DNA from: an uncultured Roseburia sp.
Lineage (GTDB): Bacteria > Bacillota > Clostridia > Lachnospirales > Lachnospiraceae
Assembly: GCA_947088675.1 (NCBI GenBank)
Contig: CAMUHN010000013.1
Span: 1-56,726 of the forward strand
Reading direction: 5' to 3'
Length of the DNA stretch: 56,726 nucleotides
Part shown: piece after piece, positions 1,241-13,316 of the stretch
Layout of the letters: the number at the start of each line of letters is the position of its first letter
How positions within the stretch are numbered: position 1 is the stretch's first letter
Notes under the pieces: generated by a model
Database searches by the model: none
What the model was told of the DNA's origin: nothing
Seen by the model: the letters and a program-made list of their open reading frames with translations, nothing else
Position numbers and translations under genes: made by a program

Positions 1241-1960
1241 ATGAAAGATTGTCTGAAGATGGGATTGTGCGATGATGATATAGAAGCTTTTATTATTTTG
1301 GAGCAGTATATTGCCGAATATGCAAAGAAAAACGCAATTACATGCAAACTTGTGTATTTTTCTTCCGGGAAAGAGCTGTTGTCGCAGGCAGAGAAGACAA
1401 AAGATCTTGATATTTTGTTTTTAGATATTGAAATGCCGGAGATCGACGGTATCGCGGCGGCATTTCAGCTATTAAAAAACGAGATTTCCTACAGGATCAT
1501 CATGCTGACTGCGAGAACAGAGCGTTTCAAGGAGGCGTTTCGGATTGGCGCTTTTCGCTTTGTGACAAAGCCGATTATGCAGCAGGAATTATTTGAGGCG
1601 GTTGATGCGGTTCGAAAACGAATGCTTGGAAATGATGAGCTGCGTGTTTATCGTGACGGAAGAAGCCATACTATTCTGCAGAAAGATATCTGCTATATTC
1701 TTGCAGAGAGCGCAGCGACTATGATTTATACAAAAAAATATGAATTTCGCAGTGAAGTACCGTTAAAGAAATGGGAGGAAGTGCTGGACAACAGGCTGTT
1801 TTTTCGCTGCCATAAGGCATATATTGTGAATCTTGGCGCAGTGCGTACAATAGAGAAAGAAGTAGTTCATCTGACTACAGGGGAGAAGATTCTGGTTTCC
1901 AGGCGTAAAAAAAATGATTTTGAAAAAAAATATATGGAGTTTGACACAAAGTATTGCTGA
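1241..1960 (+). CDS. LytTR-family response regulator
   Basis: This 239-residue protein has an N-terminal receiver domain with acidic pocket D11-D13 (LCDDD), predicted phospho-acceptor D62 (LFLDIEMP) and conserved lysine in the FVTKP motif. A C-terminal LytTR DNA-binding domain spans about 140-235 (ILAESAATMIYT, FFRCHKAYIVNL). The order is that of AgrA/VirR-type regulators, which bind direct repeats upstream of virulence, bacteriocin or surface genes. Its TGA stop overlaps the ATG of the kinase gene, so the two are translationally coupled. The start has a strong site (GAGGGGAG). No AgrB or AgrD gene is near. Targets are unknown; the ABC operon at 3540 is a candidate only by position. Confidence 0.92.
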   Translation: MKDCLKMGLCDDDIEAFIILEQYIAEYAKKNAITCKLVYFSSGKELLSQAEKTKDLDILFLDIEMPEIDGIAAAFQLLKNEISYRIIMLTARTERFKEAFRIGAFRFVTKPIMQQELFEAVDAVRKRMLGNDELRVYRDGRSHTILQKDICYILAESAATMIYTKKYEFRSEVPLKKWEEVLDNRLFFRCHKAYIVNLGAVRTIEKEVVHLTTGEKILVSRRKKNDFEKKYMEFDTKYC

Positions 1961-3237
1961 TGCAAACCTATTTGAGAGAATTACTGTTTGGAGCAGCAGA
2001 ATGGGTTATATTCTGCTGTATGGTATGCGGAGAAAAACCTGCGCTTCTTACGGCAAAACGAGTCGTAAGTATGTTGATTGTGGGGATTTTAGTTGTTTTT
2101 GACATTTATTATTTTAACGCCGTGGGATGCTATCAGCTGGGAATGCTGTTCGTTATTTATTTTGTGTTTCAGTTTTCTTTTTGGGAGGGTGTCCGCGTAT
2201 GGATTGTGGTTTATTCGGTTTTGGGCATCTGCCATCAGTGCCTGCAGTTTGTACTGCGTAATTTTCTCTGGCGCAGCCAGTGGAAATGGACTGCGACCAT
2301 CAGTAAAATTATAGTCAGCGTTTTATGTCTTCTCTTATATAAACTGATTCCCGGACACAAGAGGATCAGAATAGGGCAGATGCCGTTTCGTTTCTGGAGT
2401 ATAGTTGCCGGCGCGCTGTTTGCGCTCCATGCGATGATGGTTTATCTCGGAATAACTTCTTTCTATATCAGGGGCAGGCGCGGTTCTGTAGTCTGGGCGG
2501 CGGTGATTATTTTTGGAGTAATCGGAATTTTCCTGATATTAGTGCTGTGCATTTATTATTACAGAATGTACGGAGTATTACAATTGCAGAACGAGTATGC
2601 CGAAAAATTTAATGCGCAGCAAAAAGAATACTTTGACAGGCTGATTGAAAAAGAACAGGACACAAGAAATTTCCGGCATGAGATCAGTAACCATCTGGTC
2701 AGTATCAGCGGTATGGCGAATCGGCATGAGTATGAAGCTTTAAATTTATATGTCAAAGAGCTTCTGGGAGAATTGCATGACATTGGCATCAGGCAGTATG
2801 ATCTGGGCAACCATATGATGAATACGATTGTCAATTATTATTTTTTGCCGATTCGTGATACCTGTGAGCTTACGGTGAGCGGTTATGTGGACGAGATAGA
2901 TGCCATATCCGGTCCTGACCTGTGTGTGCTTGTATCGAATCTTGTCAAAAATGCCGTTGAGGCGGTAGAACAGATTATCATACAGGAAAAGAAGATACGA
3001 TTCGAGGTTGACTGTGGAAAACAGTATTTTCATATCTGTGTACAAAACACAATGCTGCAGGAGAAAAAGGAGGAATCCGGCTTTCTGACAGTAACCAGCA
3101 AGCAGGATAAGAAAAATCATGGGATTGGTCTTTATAATGTTCGCAAGATTGTGGAAAAATATGACGGGAAACTGGAATATGGGCAAAGGGAGGGTGTATT
3201 TATCGCAGAGGCTTATCTGAAACTGAATTCAAAATAG
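1960..3237 (+). CDS. GHKL-domain membrane sensor histidine kinase
   Basis: A 425-residue kinase with about six hydrophobic helices in the first 210 residues, a short coiled linker, then a DHp-like segment with phospho-acceptor His in RNFRHEISNHLV. The GHKL ATPase follows, with N box VSNLVKNAVEAVE and G box GIGLYNVRKIVEKYDG. This is the AgrC-like layout and matches the LytTR regulator upstream. The ATG at 1960 overlaps the upstream TGA; a TTG at 1954 is in frame but less likely. The membrane half has no recognised sensor domain, so a peptide or envelope signal is inferred only from related systems. A strong terminator lies 30 bases downstream. Confidence 0.9.
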   Translation: MQTYLRELLFGAAEWVIFCCMVCGEKPALLTAKRVVSMLIVGILVVFDIYYFNAVGCYQLGMLFVIYFVFQFSFWEGVRVWIVVYSVLGICHQCLQFVLRNFLWRSQWKWTATISKIIVSVLCLLLYKLIPGHKRIRIGQMPFRFWSIVAGALFALHAMMVYLGITSFYIRGRRGSVVWAAVIIFGVIGIFLILVLCIYYYRMYGVLQLQNEYAEKFNAQQKEYFDRLIEKEQDTRNFRHEISNHLVSISGMANRHEYEALNLYVKELLGELHDIGIRQYDLGNHMMNTIVNYYFLPIRDTCELTVSGYVDEIDAISGPDLCVLVSNLVKNAVEAVEQIIIQEKKIRFEVDCGKQYFHICVQNTMLQEKKEESGFLTVTSKQDKKNHGIGLYNVRKIVEKYDGKLEYGQREGVFIAEAYLKLNSK

Positions 3238-3266
3238 ACAGGATGTCAGGTTCTTTTTTTAGTTTT

Positions 3267-3309
3267 GGGGAACCAGTGGCTGGAATCAGTCACTGGTTCC
3301 CCTTTTTTT
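3267..3309 (+). terminator. Strong intrinsic terminator after the two-component operon
   Basis: A perfect 12-bp stem, GGGGAACCAGTG (3267-3278) with CACTGGTTCCCC (3291-3302), is followed by seven T residues. It separates the two-component operon from the ABC transporter operon. Confidence 0.93.
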
Positions 3310-3371
3310 CGGACAGTCCTTTTGTCGCAGAACCGTTTATTGGTCTGTATGACCGTTTGCCGTTGTGTGTA

Positions 3372-3400
3372 TTGAAAAACATATTTTTCAATGTTAATTT
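3372..3400 (+). promoter_or_regulatory. Candidate promoter with overlapping palindromic operator
   Basis: TTGAAA (3372-3377) and TAATTT (3395-3400) are 17 bp apart. A perfect inverted repeat, TTGAAAAA-CATA-TTTTTCAA (3372-3391), covers the -35 and most of the spacer, a place where a bound repressor would block RNA polymerase. It would serve the transporter operon, with a leader of about 130 nt. The rest of the interval 3310-3539 shows no gene or other clear structure. Confidence 0.5.
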
Positions 3401-3539
3401 AAAAACAGCATCTGTGGGAACAGGCCAAATTTGATTCGCACAAAAGTATGCGGTTTCGGTTGCAGGATATGTGGCTGTACACTGTCTGCCATATACCTGA
3501 AATGTGCAAAAAGCGGTGCAGAAATGGAGGAAAAAGGAA

Positions 3540-4943
3540 ATGAAGAAAAAAAGGAAAAGAAGAACATGTTTTATCCTGTTTGTCATGTTAGGAGTTTTTT
3601 TTGTTCTGCCGGTTGCCTGTGCAAAAGAGAGCTCTGAAAATCTTGGAAAAAGTGACAGGGAAAATAGTGAGAGCTGCAAACAGCAGGAAGAAGATGACTG
3701 GAAAGAGGAAGAAGCGGAGTTGATGATTTACTATGTAAAAGATCATCCATATTTTGGTACTGCGATGGGCAGATATATCAGCTCTCACAGACATGTGAAG
3801 ATTAAGCTGACACCGTTTGAATCGGATGAGGAGCTGATGAACCGGCTTGCAACGGAGATTGCAGCCGGCAGTGGGCCGGATGCCGTACTGCTGTCATCGT
3901 CAAGTGCATTTGATGTGTACAAAGCGGTACAAAGCGGGAATATTGCGGAACTGTCTGCTTATTTTGACCAGGATGAGAGCTTTCGGAGGGAAGACTACTA
4001 TGAGGCGGTTCTTGAGGGAGGGAAACTGTTCGGCGGTCAGTATCTGGTTCCGTTTGAATTTGTGATAGATTCGTTTATTGTAAGACAGTCCACACTGAAA
4101 GAAATCGGGTACCGTGAGGAAGATCTGAACAATTTTTATGATATGTCAGATATGCTGATGGCTGCAGCGGAATCTGCGGACGAAAATACATGGATGCATA
4201 TACTGTCCGGGGGCGGCGAATCGCAGCCGGAGCGAGCCGCCATTCTGATGGAGACGAGCGCCATTTTGCTGACAGAGGAGGATAAACGGGCTCCGGAGGA
4301 CATGGACGATTTTGCGCTTCTTCTGGAATTGAGCAAAACGCTTCAGGATGATTATGACGAGAAACCGGCTCTTCAGGAAAAAATGAAAAGCGATCCGATC
4401 GGTATGTTAAGGGACAATATTCTGGTTATTTCTTATACGGCTAATTATTTGAAAGCCCGAATGTATATGGAACAGATGGAACAGACTTTATGGGGGACAG
4501 AATGCGCAATTCTTCCCTGGCGGAACAGGCAGGGGAAAGTACAGCCGGTACTGCGCGGTTTTGGATTTGTCAATCAAAACAGCAGGCATCCGTATGAGGC
4601 ATATCAGATTCTGCGTTACATCATGGATTACGATGATACATGGAACACGAATTTATCTGTAAAAAAATCTATTGTATCGAAACAGATGGAGTCGCTTACT
4701 TATTACGAAATTGTCGCCTATGAAGATCCTGAGACGGGAGAGGAAATCTATACGCCCAAAATGGATGATGAGATACGTGCAGAGACGGAAGCAGTGCTCG
4801 GCGACATGGGGCCTGCCATTTTACACAACACAGGTTATTACAAAATTGCAACGGAAGGACTGATTGATTACTGTCAGGGTATGGATAAGGAGGCAGTGCT
4901 TGCGTCTGTGCAAAAAGAAATTAACCGATATCTGAGGGAGTAA
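3540..4943 (+). CDS. ABC transporter extracellular solute-binding lipoprotein (sugar type)
   Basis: This 467-residue protein has a very basic N terminus (MKKKRKRR), a hydrophobic segment and a lipobox-like LPVAC, so it is probably a lipoprotein. The mature part resembles family 1 solute-binding proteins of carbohydrate importers: a segment with TEIAAGSGPDAVLL, a central LVPFEFVIDSF region and a C-terminal helical lobe. The ATG at 3540 was chosen because GGAGG lies 9 nt upstream; an in-frame GTG at 3504 lacks this. It is the first gene of a four-gene operon with two permeases. No ATPase gene is present, as is common where a shared MsmK-type ATPase serves several importers. The substrate is not evident. 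Confidence 0.87.
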   Translation: MKKKRKRRTCFILFVMLGVFFVLPVACAKESSENLGKSDRENSESCKQQEEDDWKEEEAELMIYYVKDHPYFGTAMGRYISSHRHVKIKLTPFESDEELMNRLATEIAAGSGPDAVLLSSSSAFDVYKAVQSGNIAELSAYFDQDESFRREDYYEAVLEGGKLFGGQYLVPFEFVIDSFIVRQSTLKEIGYREEDLNNFYDMSDMLMAAAESADENTWMHILSGGGESQPERAAILMETSAILLTEEDKRAPEDMDDFALLLELSKTLQDDYDEKPALQEKMKSDPIGMLRDNILVISYTANYLKARMYMEQMEQTLWGTECAILPWRNRQGKVQPVLRGFGFVNQNSRHPYEAYQILRYIMDYDDTWNTNLSVKKSIVSKQMESLTYYEIVAYEDPETGEEIYTPKMDDEIRAETEAVLGDMGPAILHNTGYYKIATEGLIDYCQGMDKEAVLASVQKEINRYLRE

Positions 4944-4949
4944 GTGTCC

Positions 4950-5873
4950 ATGGAGAAGAAACAGAGAAAAAAGGCAGTCGGATCCAAAAAGCGGATGAAA
5001 ATCAAAAAAGCCGCAGCGGGGTATCTGTTTGCGTCTGTCAGTATCGTTGGTTTGATGGCATTTTATATAGTTCCGTTTTTGCGCAGCGTCGTGCAGACTG
5101 TTATAAAGACGGACCGGGAAGGAGTACGCTGGATCGGATTTCGTTCGTATACAGAGCTGTTTTTGTACAGTATTTTTGGAGAGGCGCTTGGCAATACGAT
5201 AAAACTTGCGTTGGCAGGCTTGCCGCTGCTGCTTTTTTTTGCCATATGTCTGACGTATTTTATGAACCGGCTGGCAGTAAAGAAATCCGGAGGCGTTTCT
5301 TTCTGGTTTGCGGTGCACCTGCTGCCAATGATCCTGCCTTCTGTTGTGGTTGCTACCGTGGTAAAGCTGTTTTTTGAAAAGTATGGCGTTATAAACGGTA
5401 TTCTGGTGAATCTGGGAAAAGAACCGGTCGACTGGCTGAACTCGCAGTGGGCATGTGTGATGTTATGCGCAATTTTTTTGTGGAATAATACCGGAGATTC
5501 GATGGTGGTTGTATTTGGAGGGATAAGCGGAATTGAGAAAGAGCAGCTGGAGGCGGCTGCTCTGGACGGCGCAAATGAGCGATATACATTTTTCCGTATC
5601 ATATTGCCGCAGCTTGGCATTTTTTTTCGCTTTGTCCTGATCATGGGGATAATTGGAATATTTAAACTATATCGTGAATCCTATCTGTTGCTGGGAGATT
5701 CGCCGACAGACGAGGCTTATCTGATTCAGAATTTTTTAAATAATAATTTTGTATCGTTAAATTACGACAGGACAGTGATCGCGTCGGTTTTTTTATTTTT
5801 ACTGATAGGAACCGTATTGTTTTTCCTGTTCTGGTTTTCAGAGGAGAGGCATGAAAGGAAGAAAAAGAGATAG
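4950..5873 (+). CDS. Sugar ABC transporter permease (MalF-like)
   Basis: A 307-residue protein with a lysine-rich cytoplasmic N terminus and six predicted membrane helices. The cytoplasmic EAA loop, which docks the ATPase, is seen near residues 200-215 (EAAALDGANERYTFF). This is the first of the two permeases usual in carbohydrate importers. ATG 4950 has GAGGGAG 9 nt upstream; the GTG at 4944 is too close to that site. The gene follows the binding-protein stop by six bases and overlaps the next permease by 23 bases, so the four genes are surely one transcript. Confidence 0.88.
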   Translation: MEKKQRKKAVGSKKRMKIKKAAAGYLFASVSIVGLMAFYIVPFLRSVVQTVIKTDREGVRWIGFRSYTELFLYSIFGEALGNTIKLALAGLPLLLFFAICLTYFMNRLAVKKSGGVSFWFAVHLLPMILPSVVVATVVKLFFEKYGVINGILVNLGKEPVDWLNSQWACVMLCAIFLWNNTGDSMVVVFGGISGIEKEQLEAAALDGANERYTFFRIILPQLGIFFRFVLIMGIIGIFKLYRESYLLLGDSPTDEAYLIQNFLNNNFVSLNYDRTVIASVFLFLLIGTVLFFLFWFSEERHERKKKR

Positions 5874-6756
5874 AAGAAAAAATAAAGGAATAGTTCTGGC
5901 ACAGTTTGTGGTGTATCTGACAGGGGCGGTAACGCTGCTGATGATTTTGTACATTGGTTGTCTTTCGTTGTTCAGCGTGAGCGACCTGACAAAATCTTAT
6001 GGGGGCGTCTTAAATCCCGGCGTGGTTTCGCAGTATGCATCTTTTACCGTGATACCAGAACACTTAAGTATTACACAGTACCGCAGTACTTTATGGAACA
6101 ATTCAGATTTCTGGTATTATTTCTGGAACAGTGTGAAAATCAGTCTGCCAGTAACGCTGGCAGTCTGTCTGACTGCAACCTGCGGCGGCTATGCGTTTGC
6201 ACGTTTTCGGTTTCCAGGGAAAAAAGCGCTGTTATTTTTGTTTATCCTTTTTATGATGATACCGAGCCAGGTAATGATACCGTCACAGTTTCGTCTGATG
6301 TATGAGATGGGGCTTTTAAACAGTACGGTTTCTGTGATCCTGCCGAATGTGTTTGCGCCGTTTGGCGTTTATCTGATGTACCAGTATGCATTAAAATTAC
6401 CGGGAGATATTTTTGAGGCGGCGGCAATAGACGGCGCGGGAGAACTGCGTATCTTTTTTTCCGTTGTGCTGCCGGATCTGATCAGTGGAATAGCGGCGCT
6501 TTTTCTGCTGACTGTGATTGATGCCTGGAATTTCATTGAGCAGCCGCTTGTCTTCTTTCTGGACCCGTTTCGTCTGCCGCTCTCCGCGGCAATGAATCGG
6601 ATCGGAGAAGCGCGTGTGCTCTCCCTTTGCGCCGGCTGTATTGTTTTTATGATACCGGTGTTTCTTGTATTTTTACTTGGCAAAGACCGTTTGGTTGAGG
6701 GAATCGGACAGTCAGTGATAAAAGCGGATTCGTCTGTTAAGGGGAGGAAAGGATGA
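5851..6756 (+). CDS. Sugar ABC transporter permease (MalG-like)
   Basis: This 301-residue protein has six predicted membrane helices, an extended periplasmic-side loop after helix 1 (about residues 45-90) as in MalG-type permeases, and the EAA loop at about 188-205 (EAAAIDGAGELRIFF). It overlaps the upstream permease and its stop overlaps the start of the next gene by 4 bases (ATGA), showing tight coupling. With its partner it forms the membrane channel of the importer; the ATPase must come from elsewhere. Confidence 0.88.
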   Translation: MKGRKRDRRKNKGIVLAQFVVYLTGAVTLLMILYIGCLSLFSVSDLTKSYGGVLNPGVVSQYASFTVIPEHLSITQYRSTLWNNSDFWYYFWNSVKISLPVTLAVCLTATCGGYAFARFRFPGKKALLFLFILFMMIPSQVMIPSQFRLMYEMGLLNSTVSVILPNVFAPFGVYLMYQYALKLPGDIFEAAAIDGAGELRIFFSVVLPDLISGIAALFLLTVIDAWNFIEQPLVFFLDPFRLPLSAAMNRIGEARVLSLCAGCIVFMIPVFLVFLLGKDRLVEGIGQSVIKADSSVKGRKG

Positions 6757-7412
6757 AAAAAAGGGTTTACCGCATCGCGGTATGGGCTGCGCTGATGATA
6801 TATTTTGGAATGGCGGTTTTTTTGACCTTTTTTTCGCAGCGCAATTATTTTAGGAACTGTATCCGGGTGGAACTGCTGAAAAATACGTCTTCCGGTTCGT
6901 TAATCATACATAAGAGCAGCTTTGCGATATGTGAGATGGAGACGGACGGGACATTTACGTTTTGCTGGAACGATTACGAGGTTTATGAAAATATAGCGAT
7001 TGGCGATACGATCCGCGTAGAGATTTTGGGGCAGTTTGCGGATGCGGCAATTTTAAACCGCTATGAGATTGAGGGCAGAAAAACGTTTACGGCGAGGACA
7101 GGAGCGTTAATCGGTGATGTACTCGCCATGCAGCCGGGTGGATTTACTGTAATCGCAGATTTCCGTGGACCGAGCCGGGCCTATGTCATTCCGGCATCCT
7201 GTGTAAGGGAAAATGACGGCTCTTACGAGGTTGCGGTCGCTGCGGCGGAAAAAAAGGCCTGGGGTACGGCATATAAAGTGAACTATGTGACAGTGAGGAT
7301 CCATGAAATCAACGAGGAACAGTGTTCTCTGCAGGGGCTTCCGGTGGAGGGCGAGATCATTTATGACGGACACGGCAAGCTGCGCGAGGGGGCGGATATT
7401 TTAATCAATTAG
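6753..7412 (+). CDS. Membrane-anchored protein of unknown function, last gene of the ABC operon
   Basis: A 219-residue protein with one N-terminal membrane helix (about residues 8-28) and a soluble, beta-rich remainder with no family I recognise. Its start overlaps the permease stop (ATGA), so it belongs to the transporter operon and may be an accessory extracytoplasmic subunit; that role is inference. Its TAG stop overlaps the TAA stop of the convergent HNH nuclease gene by four bases, leaving no room for a terminator between the operons. Confidence 0.75.
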   Translation: MKKRVYRIAVWAALMIYFGMAVFLTFFSQRNYFRNCIRVELLKNTSSGSLIIHKSSFAICEMETDGTFTFCWNDYEVYENIAIGDTIRVEILGQFADAAILNRYEIEGRKTFTARTGALIGDVLAMQPGGFTVIADFRGPSRAYVIPASCVRENDGSYEVAVAAAEKKAWGTAYKVNYVTVRIHEINEEQCSLQGLPVEGEIIYDGHGKLREGADILIN

Positions 7413-8638
7413 CGCTGCTTTTGCCGGTAAAATTTTTCGATTTTTTGGTTCAGGGCGTCGAAATCCAGATCCGCTACATCGGAAAATTCGCTGGTGCCAA
7501 AACCGATATTTAAAACGGTCTGGTATGTGTGAAAATCATAGATTACCGGCATACCGTGACCGCCAAGCAGGTTGTCCCGGATCGAATCTGTCTTTGCAAG
7601 CAGACATAAATACTGGTAATGTCTGTCGATATACTGCGTATTGTTATTCGGGTGCGCATAAGAAAAATGCTGCGTGGGTGTCAGTGCAATCAGATTTTCC
7701 GGGCAGTCTGCAATCGGTCCAAATTCATTGACCGGAAAGATATGATGCATCTGCGTGGCAGGATCCTGCATATGCCGCGGGTCATACAATTCGGTTTTGC
7801 TTTTGCGGTACCGGTCGTTAAAACGGCGCAGATTTTTCTTGGCGCGGTTGATCCGGTAGGCGCTTACGATATCATCTCCCGCATCCGGGAGTGCAGCGGC
7901 ATGTTCGACTCTTGTGATGTCTTTTGGTTTGTCGGATATGATATCGCGCCAGTTCTTTTGATTGTAGAGAATCATGTCCTGCGTGATGATGCTTTTGGAA
8001 AGATGACCGCGTTCTGTCCCGCGTTTCCGGTACTGATATGCCAGCGGGTTTAATATTTTTGTAAAAATACGGCCGCACTCCAATGTTCCGTTGATCGGCG
8101 TCTGTGCGATCGTAAAAGCGGTGAAAGCGTCTTTTAATTCTTTAAAGCTGTTCTTATCCTGCAGTTGGAAAAATTTTTCAAACGGCTCGTAGATTCCGCT
8201 GTCTTTTAACACTTTTTCAATGTAGAGACATAAAAATTTCAGACAGTTTCTCTCACGGAAACTGATATATTCGAGCAGTTTTTCTTCTCTGAGAAAATAG
8301 AGAATGTGGTTTCCGTTTTTCTGGCCATGGATGATTCCGGCGGCGTCCAGCAGTTTGATCGGCTGGCCGAAATATTTGTCATATTCGTTGGACGCTTTTT
8401 GGGACGGATCTGGCTTGCAGAAAATCTGCCTTACATTTTCGATTGTATAGCTGCTGTACCAGATATCTTTCACGGTAAAAGCAGAGCCTTTTTGATTTCC
8501 AGTGTATTCTGCAATACAGTCGGCCACCAGGCAGATGACATCCATGGTACATTTCTGGTCAATCCATCGCGCATTGTGCGTTTTTCGAATGTCGTAGTCA
8601 TGTCTGTTCAAAAAATCCTGTATCGTCGTATCGTTCAT
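7409..8638 (-). CDS. HNH restriction endonuclease partnered with the fused methyltransferase
   Basis: A 409-residue protein with a C-terminal HNH (beta-beta-alpha metal) motif: H298-H299 in MHHIFPVNEF, N315 in CPENLIALTP, then H324 and H329. The first 280 residues are helical, with no other family seen, and probably hold target recognition. The gene lies just after the methyltransferase stop, and AAAGGAG within the end of that gene gives a good 8-nt spacing to ATG 8638; a GTG at 8644 overlaps the stop. This tight order fits a type II restriction-modification operon in which modification is made first. The recognition site cannot be read from sequence. Other HNH roles are possible but less likely here. 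Confidence 0.82.
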   Translation of the reverse strand: MNDTTIQDFLNRHDYDIRKTHNARWIDQKCTMDVICLVADCIAEYTGNQKGSAFTVKDIWYSSYTIENVRQIFCKPDPSQKASNEYDKYFGQPIKLLDAAGIIHGQKNGNHILYFLREEKLLEYISFRERNCLKFLCLYIEKVLKDSGIYEPFEKFFQLQDKNSFKELKDAFTAFTIAQTPINGTLECGRIFTKILNPLAYQYRKRGTERGHLSKSIITQDMILYNQKNWRDIISDKPKDITRVEHAAALPDAGDDIVSAYRINRAKKNLRRFNDRYRKSKTELYDPRHMQDPATQMHHIFPVNEFGPIADCPENLIALTPTQHFSYAHPNNNTQYIDRHYQYLCLLAKTDSIRDNLLGGHGMPVIYDFHTYQTVLNIGFGTSEFSDVADLDFDALNQKIEKFYRQKQR

Positions 8639-8640
8639 GC

Positions 8641-11154
8641 TCACTGCTCCTTTCGTATCCCATAAAAAAATACGCTTGCCGCGTCTACATTTAGAGAGCG
8701 TGTCTGGTAATTTCTTGCGATCTGGTAAAACTGACGATATTCTTCTGACGAAAAATATGCCATCTGCGTCTCGGTCAGTTCGATTTTTTCTCTTGGAATC
8801 AGAACCGCGACTGACCCGTTTACCAGCATATTGCCGGAATTTCTCATTACTCTTGGTTTGTAGGTCATATTTGGCGTCAGGTAGACGTTCTCATCCCCGA
8901 CATATTTGTAAGCGCTCAATCGTTTTGCGTCTTTTTCTTTGATATAGGTATCGTAACCCGGGATATCAATAATTTCTTTGCCGTCGTCACTGATATTTCT
9001 TGCGCGTATCACGCGAAGACAGTCCGTTCCGTTTTGCTGCGTCGTCTTGGAGTTTGTTACCTGCCTGTCCCGAAATACCGTGAATTTGTCGAAATCCAGC
9101 TGTTTTGCAATCTGATCAAAGAAATCGTTTCGATAGATAAGCCAGTACGGAAATGTGGGATCGGTGATATAGGTTTGTTTTTGCAGCAGATTTTTTTTTC
9201 GCGGGAGCGATTGTACTTTTGTTTTTTTGGGTTGCCCGTTTGTGTCGATAAACAGACAGACAGTCTCCACAAGGACGCCCCGAAAGCCATGTTCCCCAAA
9301 ATCCTGAATGCAGTCTATTTTTTTGGAGGAGAGCAGTTTCCGCGTTTCGATAAATTCCGGCGTATTCAATATGGCTTTTGGTACAATCATCACCACATAG
9401 TCGGAGATTCGAATTGCTTTCTCCAGAAAAAATTCAAAGGTATTCGTCGTGTGCTGGTTGTGATTTTGCTTGAGGTAGAGAGCGGCGTCTTTTGCTTTCA
9501 GTTTGGAAAACGGAGGATTGCCGATCACAAGATCGTATCGTTTCCCAAAATCGTACAGCAGAGAATCCCCGCGGATAAAATGCAGCGTGACATTGGGCGG
9601 TATCTGCTGTTTGTCCAGCAGTAGCTGAAGAATCTTTAAATTGTTCGGGTCAATATCCGCAACGTCAATTGTCACCTTTTTTATCGCTTCATATTTTCGG
9701 AATAAAAAGGGCAAAAAATTTCCGACTCCGACAGACGGCTCCAGTATGTTGATTTCATCCTTATCAAAAACGGGAAGTTCTTTATAAATTTCATTGATAA
9801 TAAATTTGTTTGTATAGTAAGCGGCGTTGTTTTCCCGTCTGGCGTTTGTCAGTTCCGCAATGCGCGCCAATGTGGCATTCCCCAGGTGAAGCGGGTTGTC
9901 TTCGAGAAAAGGGATCAGATTTTCTGTCCGGATGAGATTGTGATCCGCAATTATTTTTTTGAGCGCGGCATTCGAAAAATGCTTCTGCATAAGAAAATCA
10001 CGCATATAACAGGCAATCCGAAAAAAGATCCCGGTAGGTACCGCTTCGCCGATGCTCTGCCTGATATTCATTTCTTCCTTTTTCAGGAGCGCTCTTTTCT
10101 CGTCCTCCGGCAGGGCGTTGAGCTTTTTAAGCGGCAGGGCAGTCCACTGAAATTCGTCAGGAATTGTCATAAAATGCATTAACTCGCGGATGGAAAAAAC
10201 GCGGTCTTCCTGCGGATGAACCGTATTCTGGCTTGCAAGCAGATCGTTTCTGGTATGTACGCACGGCGCTGTCTTCTCCCAGTACTGGCGCGTATATTTG
10301 TCGCCGTTTTTTCGAATATTCGGAATGTGTTTTCCGTTTACTACACGGTGCGGACGTTTGCATTCGTCCTCGTTGTCAAAGGCGCATCCGCCTTCTTTGA
10401 GGTCATGGATCCAGCAGCGCATTTCTTCCGGGTAAGTGCGGAATGCATGGTAAAAATCAGTTGGGCAGATTTCCCCCCAGTTCAGTTTTGGAAGAGAGCC
10501 GATGACTTCCCTTAAGGTATGTTCTTTTTCATAGGAAGGAAATAATTCAATCGGAGCAATATATTCATCCAATGATTTATCGACTCCGATCACAATGGTA
10601 CGTGTACGGGAGGAGTTTGCGCCATAGTTTTTGAAATTAAGGATACGGCTTAAAATGGTATAGGAGCTGCCGAGTTCTTCGCCGATGACCTCGCCGATGT
10701 ATTTTACGGTTCCGTCGGGCGCCGTGCAGCCTGTTTTGGTAAAGGATGCTACATTTTCAAACAAAAAAAATCTGGGGCGGATGGATTGAATCAGACGGAT
10801 GGAATCTACGACCAGACTGTTTCTTACGATTTCGTGTTCGGTTTTTTTATGGTTGGCTACAGACATGCCCTGGCATGGCGGGGTGGCGATTAACACGTCA
10901 ACCCTGTCATTGCCAAGCTTTTTCCATTTTTTGATTTCGTCAAAAATACGGTTTTTGATTTCTTCGTTTGTAATATCGCCGCAGATATATCCGGAATCGA
11001 AGCTGCATTTCCTGTTTAGTTTTTGAATATTTAAACGCCGTTCCAGAAGCTCGTTGGTCGCGATACATGCAAAGCCGGCTTTTTTAAATCCGTAGCAGCC
11101 GACTCCCGCACAGCTGAACAGACTGATGTATGTCAAAGTTTTATCTTTTAACAT
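8641..11154 (-). CDS. Bifunctional DNA methyltransferase: m5C domain fused to N6-adenine (Eco57I-like) domain
   Basis: An 837-residue protein with two complete methyltransferase halves. Residues about 8-390 carry m5C motifs: SAM loop FSCAGVG (13-19), catalytic PPCQG (92-96), ENV (133-135), and a late motif with IRELMHFMTIPDEF. Residues about 400-837 carry a gamma-type adenine enzyme: SAM loop EPSVGVGNF near 472, catalytic NPPF at 546-549, then an Eco57I/TaqI-like C-terminal region likely to bind DNA. Both catalytic motifs look intact. Such a fusion could modify both strands of an asymmetric site, cytosine on one and adenine on the other. ATG 11154 has GGGG about 10 nt upstream; an alternative GTG lies at 11163. 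The HNH nuclease gene follows immediately. Confidence 0.9.
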   Translation of the reverse strand: MLKDKTLTYISLFSCAGVGCYGFKKAGFACIATNELLERRLNIQKLNRKCSFDSGYICGDITNEEIKNRIFDEIKKWKKLGNDRVDVLIATPPCQGMSVANHKKTEHEIVRNSLVVDSIRLIQSIRPRFFLFENVASFTKTGCTAPDGTVKYIGEVIGEELGSSYTILSRILNFKNYGANSSRTRTIVIGVDKSLDEYIAPIELFPSYEKEHTLREVIGSLPKLNWGEICPTDFYHAFRTYPEEMRCWIHDLKEGGCAFDNEDECKRPHRVVNGKHIPNIRKNGDKYTRQYWEKTAPCVHTRNDLLASQNTVHPQEDRVFSIRELMHFMTIPDEFQWTALPLKKLNALPEDEKRALLKKEEMNIRQSIGEAVPTGIFFRIACYMRDFLMQKHFSNAALKKIIADHNLIRTENLIPFLEDNPLHLGNATLARIAELTNARRENNAAYYTNKFIINEIYKELPVFDKDEINILEPSVGVGNFLPFLFRKYEAIKKVTIDVADIDPNNLKILQLLLDKQQIPPNVTLHFIRGDSLLYDFGKRYDLVIGNPPFSKLKAKDAALYLKQNHNQHTTNTFEFFLEKAIRISDYVVMIVPKAILNTPEFIETRKLLSSKKIDCIQDFGEHGFRGVLVETVCLFIDTNGQPKKTKVQSLPRKKNLLQKQTYITDPTFPYWLIYRNDFFDQIAKQLDFDKFTVFRDRQVTNSKTTQQNGTDCLRVIRARNISDDGKEIIDIPGYDTYIKEKDAKRLSAYKYVGDENVYLTPNMTYKPRVMRNSGNMLVNGSVAVLIPREKIELTETQMAYFSSEEYRQFYQIARNYQTRSLNVDAASVFFYGIRKEQ

Positions 11155-11201
11155 TTCATGCACCCCGTTTTATCAGGTTTTCCCCTGTTACTGTACGTAT
11201 T

Positions 11202-11230
11202 ATTATAGGCAGTTCCTCGGATAAATTCAA
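11202..11230 (-). promoter_or_regulatory. Promoter of the restriction-modification operon
   Basis: On the minus strand TTGAAT (11225-11230) and a perfect TATAAT (11202-11207) are separated by 17 bp, about 48 bases before the methyltransferase ATG. It lies between the upstream hypothetical gene and the methyltransferase, so the operon has its own promoter. No separate controller (C-protein) gene is present. Confidence 0.75.
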
Positions 11231-11257: not shown

Positions 11258-11731
11258 TCAGCAGAGAACAACGATTTTTCGGGGTGTTGTCTGCGGGGGA
11301 ATACTGCGAGTTGTCGTCGAATAATAGGCGAGCAGCGTTCTTCCGGAGAGGCTGCAGTTAAAATTTTGTCCGTTTAACGTCTCTGTATTGGTACTTCGGG
11401 ATACGGTAATCTGCAAAGAATTGTCGCGTGCGGTAAGGTTTCGGTCAAACTCGCCGATCATGACCTGTTCATTGCGCATCAGAACGGTGACAATCTGTGC
11501 CTGGTACTGCGGAGGGAAAATCAGCGGTACAGGAAGCGTGCGGTCATAAAATGCCGCGACGAAAAGTCCGGGACGAAGCCGCCTGTTTTCTATTACGTGT
11601 GTATCCGGCGTTATCATAAAATTGACAATGCCATTATTGGTGTTTACCGCCATCATCTGGCTGCAGCAGTCGCTGCCGTTTGTAATGCTGACTATCGTAC
11701 CTGTGATTGGTTCCAAATCTGTATATGCCAT
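11258..11731 (-). CDS. Conserved-looking hypothetical protein, beta-rich
   Basis: A 157-residue protein starting MAYTDLEPITGTIVSI, with a pair of cysteines (GSDCCSQ) and a predicted all-beta fold. I do not recognise the family. The ATG at 11731 has AAAGGA 8-9 nt upstream; a longer reading to 11803 lacks a site. It has no signal peptide or membrane helix. The 208-base gap upstream (11732-11939) has TTGACT and TATACT elements, but 19 bp apart, so that promoter is weakly supported. Nothing connects it to the restriction genes beyond position. Confidence 0.65.
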   Translation of the reverse strand: MAYTDLEPITGTIVSITNGSDCCSQMMAVNTNNGIVNFMITPDTHVIENRRLRPGLFVAAFYDRTLPVPLIFPPQYQAQIVTVLMRNEQVMIGEFDRNLTARDNSLQITVSRSTNTETLNGQNFNCSLSGRTLLAYYSTTTRSIPPQTTPRKIVVLC

Positions 11732-11939
11732 AATGTTTCCTTTTATGAAAGATATGCTTTCTTTTATATTATGTTTCAGCTGCTTATCCGGTGACGTTTC
11801 CACGCCGCTTCGAAAGATTTTTAACCGGCGTTCTTACCGCGGTATGCCGGGATGGCCCGGAACATAAATTCCGCTGTTCCTTTGCCGTGATATTTACAGT
11901 ATAAACTATGACGTAAGGTCAGAGTCAAACAGGTAAAAT

Positions 11940-13316
11940 TTAATTCAGGTTATCTTCCGCCATCATTAAAATGCTGAGTAAAAAGATTCCGTCTTTTAAT
12001 TCAATGGCGATATCTCCGGCATAGTTTTTTGCTACTCTTCTAATGTTAGACAGACCATACCCATGTCCCCCTGTTTTTTTCTTTGAGGTTACAGGAAGTA
12101 CGCTCTCTGTATCCCATTGTAAGCAGCCGTTGAAACTGTTGCCGATTTCAATCATGTAGGCGTTGTCCTGGCGATAAGAAAGAACAGAGACAAATTTTTC
12201 GTCTCCTGTGGCGTATTCCATTGCGTTATGCAGCGCATTATTTAAGATTACGCTGAGATCAAACGCATCGATATTCGTATTGACAGGATAATGAAAATCC
12301 AGATCAAGTCGTATCTGCCTTTTTTGAGCCTCGCTTTTCATTTCCTGTAAAATAACATCGGTTACGGGGTTGCCGCTGTTGATCTGACCTGTCGCTTCCG
12401 CAAATACTGTAAGCAGTTTCTTACGGTATTCGGTTGCTTCTGTTGTCAGGTTTTCTGCAGAAAGCCGTTCGAGCGTGATCATGTGATTGGCCATGTCGTG
12501 TTTGATGCTGCGGATATTCTGATAGTAAAGTTCGACTCTCCCGATATGATGCCTGATATTTGTAAGCTGCATAGCAAGCAGTTCATTCTGCAGTTTTTCC
12601 TCCTGTCCGGTCCGGATACTTTGACAGAGTAAAATCATGACTAAGATAGTGATCACTGCCGCGGCATAAAAAAGCAGTGACAAAGCGTCATAGAAACCAG
12701 ATAGCTGTCCTGTTTTGCCGATATAAAAGTTACGGTAGCACCCTGTAATTTCATATCCGGCTATCCCCATAAAAGAGGGAATCGTCAGTACCAGAGCCTC
12801 TTTTTTTGACATCTGCGTCTGTTTATACGTGAAATGCCTGATGATGAAATGAATGCTGATCATGGTAAAGATAAATCCGGCCAGCAGATAAAACAGGCAT
12901 ACCCCAATGTACAGGGGGAAAAACATAGCCGGGTGATCCGCCATATAGTCTGTATTTTCTGCAAAGCGGTATATCCGGTCGTACAATATTTCCGCCATTG
13001 CAAAAGTGAATCCGCGCAGCGCAAAAAAGGTTACTGCAAGGAATGCTTTTTGCTCATAATTATTCCGGTCAGTCAGACACAATATCAGAAAAGCGAAAAA
13101 AACGCCGACCCCAAAGGACGTAAAATGATCGAATGGCAGCGGGGACAGATAGAACAGCAGCATCGTAAGAGCATATGCTGTTCCGGCGGCAAATTTTCCT
13201 TTGCTGTTTTTCATAAACGGATTTAAGAGCCGATTGAAACAATATCCGGCAAGAAAGATTTCTGCAACCGGGACTGTAAAGTAGATTATGTTCCAGTATA
13301 TTTCATGATTTGGCAT
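11940..13316 (-). CDS. Orphan GHKL membrane sensor histidine kinase
   Basis: A 458-residue AgrC-like kinase. The first 230 residues hold six or seven membrane helices. A DHp-type segment has phospho-acceptor His in RSIKHDMANHMI, followed by a GHKL ATPase with N box SVILNNALHNAMEYA and G box GHGYGLSNIRRVAKNYAG. No response regulator adjoins it; the nearest LytTR regulator is about 10 kb away and has its own kinase. It may act on a distant regulator. It is divergent from the two unknown genes at 13580-14513, sharing a 263-base intergenic region. Confidence 0.88.
   Translation of the reverse strand: MPNHEIYWNIIYFTVPVAEIFLAGYCFNRLLNPFMKNSKGKFAAGTAYALTMLLFYLSPLPFDHFTSFGVGVFFAFLILCLTDRNNYEQKAFLAVTFFALRGFTFAMAEILYDRIYRFAENTDYMADHPAMFFPLYIGVCLFYLLAGFIFTMISIHFIIRHFTYKQTQMSKKEALVLTIPSFMGIAGYEITGCYRNFYIGKTGQLSGFYDALSLLFYAAAVITILVMILLCQSIRTGQEEKLQNELLAMQLTNIRHHIGRVELYYQNIRSIKHDMANHMITLERLSAENLTTEATEYRKKLLTVFAEATGQINSGNPVTDVILQEMKSEAQKRQIRLDLDFHYPVNTNIDAFDLSVILNNALHNAMEYATGDEKFVSVLSYRQDNAYMIEIGNSFNGCLQWDTESVLPVTSKKKTGGHGYGLSNIRRVAKNYAGDIAIELKDGIFLLSILMMAEDNLN

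Follow-up and report, generated by a model that had tools for sequence, protein, structure and literature searches.

Gene Structure of the Locus

The window, by which we mean the whole analysed stretch of 56,726 nucleotides from an uncultured Roseburia sp., carries a methyltransferase gene and a restriction endonuclease gene in tandem, with a promoter-like sequence ahead of them:

8641 to 11154, minus strand: fused DNA methyltransferase, 837 amino acids (open reading frame from the ATG at 11154, Pfam, PADLOC PDLC03277, invariant motifs)
7409 to 8638, minus strand: HNH-type type IIS restriction endonuclease, 409 amino acids (PADLOC PDLC03488, H299/N315/H324 spacing)
11202 to 11230, minus strand: possible sigma-70 promoter, TTGAAT-17-TATAAT (10 of 12 matches, about 48 nt upstream of the methyltransferase ATG)

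The methyltransferase stop codon occupies positions 8643-8641, and a gap of 2 nt separates it from the nuclease ATG (8638), which has an AAAGGAG sequence upstream. With GTG starts the frames are slightly longer: 8641-11163 (minus strand, 840 amino acids) for the methyltransferase and 7409-8644 (GTG at 8644, 411 amino acids) for the nuclease. Promoter-like sites number 5 across the whole region versus 6.2 expected by chance, so the candidate promoter is weak evidence; the scan of the region for promoters and terminators together also stays at chance level.

The flanking regions 4944-7412 and 11258-13316 contain further open reading frames; judged by reading alone, those at 4944-6756 resemble ABC-transporter permeases. 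About 5 kb of the window (1959-7430) lies between the restriction-modification (R-M) pair and the sequence shared with locus L039 of a second genome, G603, and is missing from L039. In an empty-site comparison, the two genes next to the system were not found in the 23 other genomes of the same genus that were searched.

The methyltransferase consists of an m5C half (residues ~1-385), a linker (~386-425), and a gamma-type, Eco57I-like m6A half (~426-837). Pfam places a C5 methylase domain at residues 11-340 (E = 3.2e-36) and an Eco57I domain at 538-624 (E = 1.6e-12). In an alignment of 40 fused proteins (the window protein and 39 relatives out of 63 candidates, with 24 left out), the invariant residues are P92-P93-C94-Q95, E133-N134-V135, R183, and R185 in the m5C half and E472-P473, G476, G478, F480, and N546-P547-P548 in the m6A half. 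The linker (386-425) is the least conserved region, with a median identity to the window of 32.5%. Solved structures match the protein by halves, and all of these matches are other methyltransferases: C5 enzymes and, weakly, lmo1582 and TaqI. As far as the sequence can tell, both halves are intact.

No Pfam or NCBIfam family matched the nuclease above cut-off, and solved structures gave no match to it at E values up to 10. Because Pfam gave no nuclease family, the HNH label rests on the H299/N315/H324 motif and the PADLOC match (523 bits). Among 52 aligned nucleases (the window protein and 51 relatives out of 82 candidates, with 31 left out), H298, H299, and H324 are invariant and N315 is nearly so. 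The His-Asn-His spacing of 16 and 9 equals that of H295/N311/H320 in HpyAV, a comparison made by spacing and published residue numbers. Both window proteins are presumably catalytically active. A first-pass annotation had proposed an 837-residue protein starting at 11154, with both methyltransferase types in one chain and an HNH partner gene directly after it. The open reading frame, the two Pfam domains with their invariant motifs, and the 2-nt gap to a nuclease with this motif and PADLOC match bear out that description.

Assignment to the HpyAV/Hin4II Family

The methyltransferase matches PADLOC model PDLC03277 (823 positions) with 951 bits over residues 4-838 of the 840-residue form. Its m5C half matches PDLC03370 (387 positions; 529 bits, residues 8-385), its m6A half matches PDLC03382 (445 positions; 421 bits, residues 405-838), and the nuclease matches the REase_II model PDLC03488 (430 positions) over residues 3-407. 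The three methyltransferase models have the published lengths of M.HpyAV (823 amino acids), M1.Hin4II (387), and M2.Hin4II (445; PMC2816704 Table 2), so they probably stand for these proteins. The best of 119 Helicobacteraceae genomes (L140) scores 1869.5 bits on the 823-position model, which fits its standing for M.HpyAV. The length of PDLC03488 equals neither that of the HpyAV nuclease (419) nor that of the Hin4II nuclease (418).

The window methyltransferase is 50.8% and 51.5% identical to the Helicobacteraceae copies L140 and L141, and the family order recurs in the window: m5C, then m6A, then an HNH nuclease directly downstream on the same strand. By these sequence criteria the pair is a member of the HpyAV/Hin4II type IIS family, a type already known. 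Weak partial matches of the methyltransferase to PglX of BREX (33.7 bits versus a cut-off of 500) and to DrmMII of DISARM (90 bits) were also recorded. The first-pass annotation had regarded the locus as a candidate for an unusual defence system. This view is not supported, since the architecture is already published for HpyAV and, in Table 2 of the same paper, for 10 further systems with fused methyltransferases (PMC2816704).

Fusion and Distribution

A contig scan with an alignment of five nucleases gave 150 related stretches, the best 80 of which were named and analysed. Among these best 80 of 150, the methyltransferase is fused in 58 and split in 7; the other 15 could not be classified, the usual cause being a contig end or a broken frame. 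Fusion is therefore the rule in the family, and the earlier suggestion that a single m5C-plus-m6A chain is much less usual finds no support here. On a tree of 73 nucleases, 66 from fused and 7 from split loci, at least four changes between these states are required, 3 of which are forced by well supported branches.

The window assembly is fragmented (122 contigs, 87.6% complete), which could favor an assembly chimera or two genes joined recently by accident. Misassembly at residue 390-400 had in fact been named earlier as a possible source of the fusion. However, the same fusion with an open junction occurs in 58 of the best 80 of 150 related loci, and L039 has the same methyltransferase-nuclease arrangement at the same chromosomal place, so an assembly error is not tenable. 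The M.HpyAV junction was moreover re-sequenced by its authors, who describe a true fusion of C5 and N6A methyltransferases (PMC2816704). We give a chimera or accidental joining practically no credence. L039 is 89-90% identical to the window in the methyltransferase and 86% in the nuclease.

The nuclease matched in 7 of the 291 genomes searched in the window's class, where a full-length fused methyltransferase occurs in 3 genomes (the window genome included) and split pairs occur in 2; a further genome of the class, G195, has the two methyltransferase halves on contig pieces. Within the sampled genus the nuclease is present in the window genome and in one of 59 others (G603), and outside the genus but within the same order it was found in 0 of 38 genomes. 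Carriers from the window's clade include Blautia schinkii MSK.6.26 and Velocimicrobium porci (loci L040 and L041). Copies also lie on three plasmid records and in two unannotated 'Bacteriophage sp.' records. A search of 140 Pasteurellaceae genomes for the split m5C gene returned one family-like copy, truncated, which was that of G293 itself.

Several relatives depart from the two-gene layout. A gene of 165-174 amino acids lies between the methyltransferase and the nuclease in four loci (L057:4490-4987, L068:3899-4405, L070:4461-4985, and L072:4446-4970). The L057 and L070 copies are 40% identical, and neither Pfam (above cut-off) nor PADLOC assigned a family to those of L057, L068, and L070; the gene may have an accessory or immunity-like role in the system. 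A different 104-residue open reading frame at the same position in L065 (4666-4980) gave no family above cut-off. In L057 a second family nuclease (6199-7461), about 40% identical to the first, follows directly after it. Genome G236, which lies outside the 7 of 291 in which the nuclease matched, has a full fused methyltransferase (L004:1492-4011) with no family nuclease in the 5.5 kb covered; it is possibly an orphan or anti-restriction methyltransferase.

Two loci hold the m5C methyltransferase, the m6A methyltransferase, and the HNH nuclease in one open frame, of 1248 amino acids stop to stop in L044 (272-4015) and 1265 in L049 (2433-6227). Both retain a Shine-Dalgarno-like stretch and the nuclease ATG inside the frame. 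The same junction is out of frame in L045 and in the window, and a one-base error at the L044 or L049 junction is possible because both are metagenome assemblies. It is conceivable, if unlikely, that fusion in this family extends to a single-chain machine and that a cell could make both free nuclease and a chain with three active sites. Production of both would mean that a type IIC-like enzyme which sets two different marks exists in nature. A man-made nuclease-methyltransferase fusion of Eco29kI is functional (PMC3039593), and a limited literature search found no report of a natural m5C-m6A-HNH chain.

Predicted Recognition Site

The putative recognition domains (TRDs, with residue limits set by us) of both methyltransferase halves show roughly the same conservation as the catalytic cores. 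The median identity to the window is 61.0% in the TRD versus 63.0% in the core for the m5C half, and 52.8% versus 51.3% for the m6A half. For 33 other m5C methyltransferases aligned to the window, the TRD has 27.1% identity versus 33.7% in the core. That TRDs within the family diverge no faster than cores speaks for one shared specificity. Evidence on the other side comes from L140, the copy nearest the HpyAV model, whose m5C-TRD identity of 54% is the lowest of the set. The idea that the Eco57I-like half brings the recognition domain thus holds in part: a putative TRD is present there, but the m5C half has one of its own.

The word CCTTC was chosen from HpyAV before any counting. Of the 512 five-mers, it shows the strongest depletion in the window (37 observed versus 71.7 expected). 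Elsewhere in the window genome (G000), over 400 kb of further contigs, it ranks second (264 versus 519.7 expected; O/E 0.51), and in the second carrier, G603, it ranks first (270 versus 506.9 expected; O/E 0.53). Two larger non-carrier genomes of the same genus have slightly low O/E values of 0.89 and 0.88 (ranks 38 and 37), and nine non-carriers of the genus, with 20-400 kb each, range from 0.84 to 1.04. A second-order model gives 0.41 (rank 6 of 511) and 0.45 (rank 7 of 512) in the carriers versus 0.94 and 0.91 in non-carriers. The two carriers are close relatives, so their avoidance does not amount to two independent cases.

Flanking sequence extends the comparison to carrier loci with ten phylum labels; 4 of the 79 loci L040-L118 were dropped because they had no usable nuclease coordinates or flanks. 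In pooled flanking DNA, CCTTC has an O/E of 0.37 (rank 2 of 509) for 17 carrier loci related to the window and 0.65 (rank 20 of 512) for 58 others; 24 control loci, taken from genomes in which the nuclease gave no match, have 0.96 (rank 170 of 433). The window's clade thus shows strong avoidance, and the other carriers show less. Another word, CTCAG, is depleted as strongly as CCTTC, regardless of the R-M system (O/E 0.43 in the window genome and 0.48 in the non-carrier G598), which means that depletion alone is no proof of an R-M site.

The first-pass annotation had compared the locus with HphI, whose site is GGTGA. That word is not depleted in the window genome (O/E 1.01), and the PADLOC matches are to HpyAV/Hin4II-type proteins; HphI was consequently rejected as the nearest relative, and the comparison points to a different system.

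The system could instead belong to the same family with a site that has drifted to a near-neighbor of CCTTC, such as CCTTS or a 4-base core, and so have a new specificity. Chan et al. raise the possibility that distant nucleases have sites differing by 1 bp (PMC2816704 section 10), and normalizing counts by base composition only puts CCTTG, CCTTA, and CCTAC in carriers at 0.50-0.59 of the non-carrier values as well. Under a Markov expectation, however, CCTTG and CCTTA each stand at 1.14 in the window genome. When the two carriers are set against the six non-carriers with 80 kb or more, CCTTC alone stands out among 502 five-mers, with a difference of -0.51 log units versus -0.10 for the next word. 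This comparison dropped 10 of 512 five-mers for low counts and left out G599 (3.4 kb fetched), and three non-carriers of 20-25 kb enter the range above only. We consider a drifted site very unlikely. Homology and the avoidance of CCTTC together suggest that CCTTC is the site of the window system, which supports the earlier proposal that the site is asymmetric and that its two strands are marked differently.

A further alternative is that the methyltransferase works only in protection while the nuclease is inactive, and that the avoidance of CCTTC is a relic of the past or a product of m5C deamination. Relatives with broken nucleases exist: that of L140 is frameshifted, that of L079 is in pieces, and that of the N. 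meningitidis GAAGG system is interrupted (PMC7973814). Carriers have 1.13 times as much CTTTC, the product of deamination at the second C, but TCTTC is not raised (0.86), so deamination could explain a small part of the CCTTC loss; the gain in CTTTC is too small for a 3.6-fold loss. In addition, the window nuclease has an intact frame with its catalytic residues present, and the nuclease is kept at 86% identity in L039. An inactive nuclease is therefore unlikely.

Proposed Function

With a probability of about 0.93, we interpret the window pair as a working type IIS R-M system of the HpyAV/Hin4II family that recognizes CCTTC, marks both strands, and cuts with an HNH nuclease. This reading is supported by the gene structure, the conserved catalytic residues in three active sites, the family membership, and the depletion of CCTTC. 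Within the methyltransferase, the N-terminal half would add m5C to the CCTTC strand, and m6A on the GAAGG strand would come from the C-terminal half. With both strands marked, each daughter duplex would, we propose, stay protected once the DNA has been replicated. Translation of the HNH nuclease begins just past the methyltransferase stop; this enzyme would bind unmodified CCTTC and cleave a short distance from it, as HpyAV does at 6/5. For the window system, protection from phage is a prediction, as are the positions of methylation and cleavage, and an equal dosage of the two marks as the advantage of fusion is a guess.

The locus thereby drops out of the candidates for new defence systems; it can be named, and both a mechanism and a site can be proposed for it. 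It is ordinary as a system and of some use as a worked example: no gap in the word list is more specific to carriers than CCTTC, which had been picked in advance from the H. pylori enzyme, and the same five-mer avoidance test could serve for other R-M systems known only as sequence. The repeated fusion and splitting of the two methyltransferases in this family also bears on why such fusions are kept.

Comparison with Known Systems

HphI and MnlI have separate methyltransferases and sites other than CCTTC. They resemble the window system in being type IIS enzymes with HNH-type nucleases (PMC2816704). A search of the literature on Nanopore sequencing and Lachnospiraceae found nothing on a system of the window type; the relevant passages of PMC13343189 concern other motifs.

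The marks and nuclease class of the window system also differ from those of FokI. In FokI both marks are m6A and the nuclease is of the PD-(D/E)XK class. The likeness is that two methyltransferases for an asymmetric site are joined in one chain (PMC4081073).

Other known systems share the predicted site. In H. influenzae, Hin4II (CCTTC) has the same methyltransferase types, nuclease family, and gene order, but its methyltransferases are two separate genes rather than one chain (PMC2816704). A distant fused relative in N. meningitidis, NEIS0295, which we match to the FAM18 entry of Chan's table because of its locus number, gives 98.7-99.9% m6A at GAAGG, and m6A is the one mark reported at the GAAGG/CCTTC site of these strains in the relevant passages of that paper (PMC7973814).

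HpyAV itself recognizes CCTTC and cuts 6/5, and H295, N311, and H320 of this HNH nuclease were examined by mutation (Chan et al. 2010, PMC2816704). Detection of both marks, which had been suggested as a check on the window system, has been done on M.HpyAV (hp0054) with the predicted result: m5C was found at 1198 of 1304 CCTTC sites and m6A at 1252 of 1304 GAAGG sites (Krebes et al. 2013, PMC3936762 Table 1). In H. pylori P12, the figure at GAAGG is 96% (PMC3983042). Like the window system, HpyAV has a single-chain m5C-plus-m6A methyltransferase (823 amino acids versus 837 in the window) and a downstream HNH nuclease in the same direction (419 versus 409) with the same active-site spacing (PMC2816704). 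The two differ in host phylum and in sequence, with a methyltransferase identity of about 51% between the window and the Helicobacteraceae copies, and the CCTTC site that is predicted for the window system has been measured for HpyAV.
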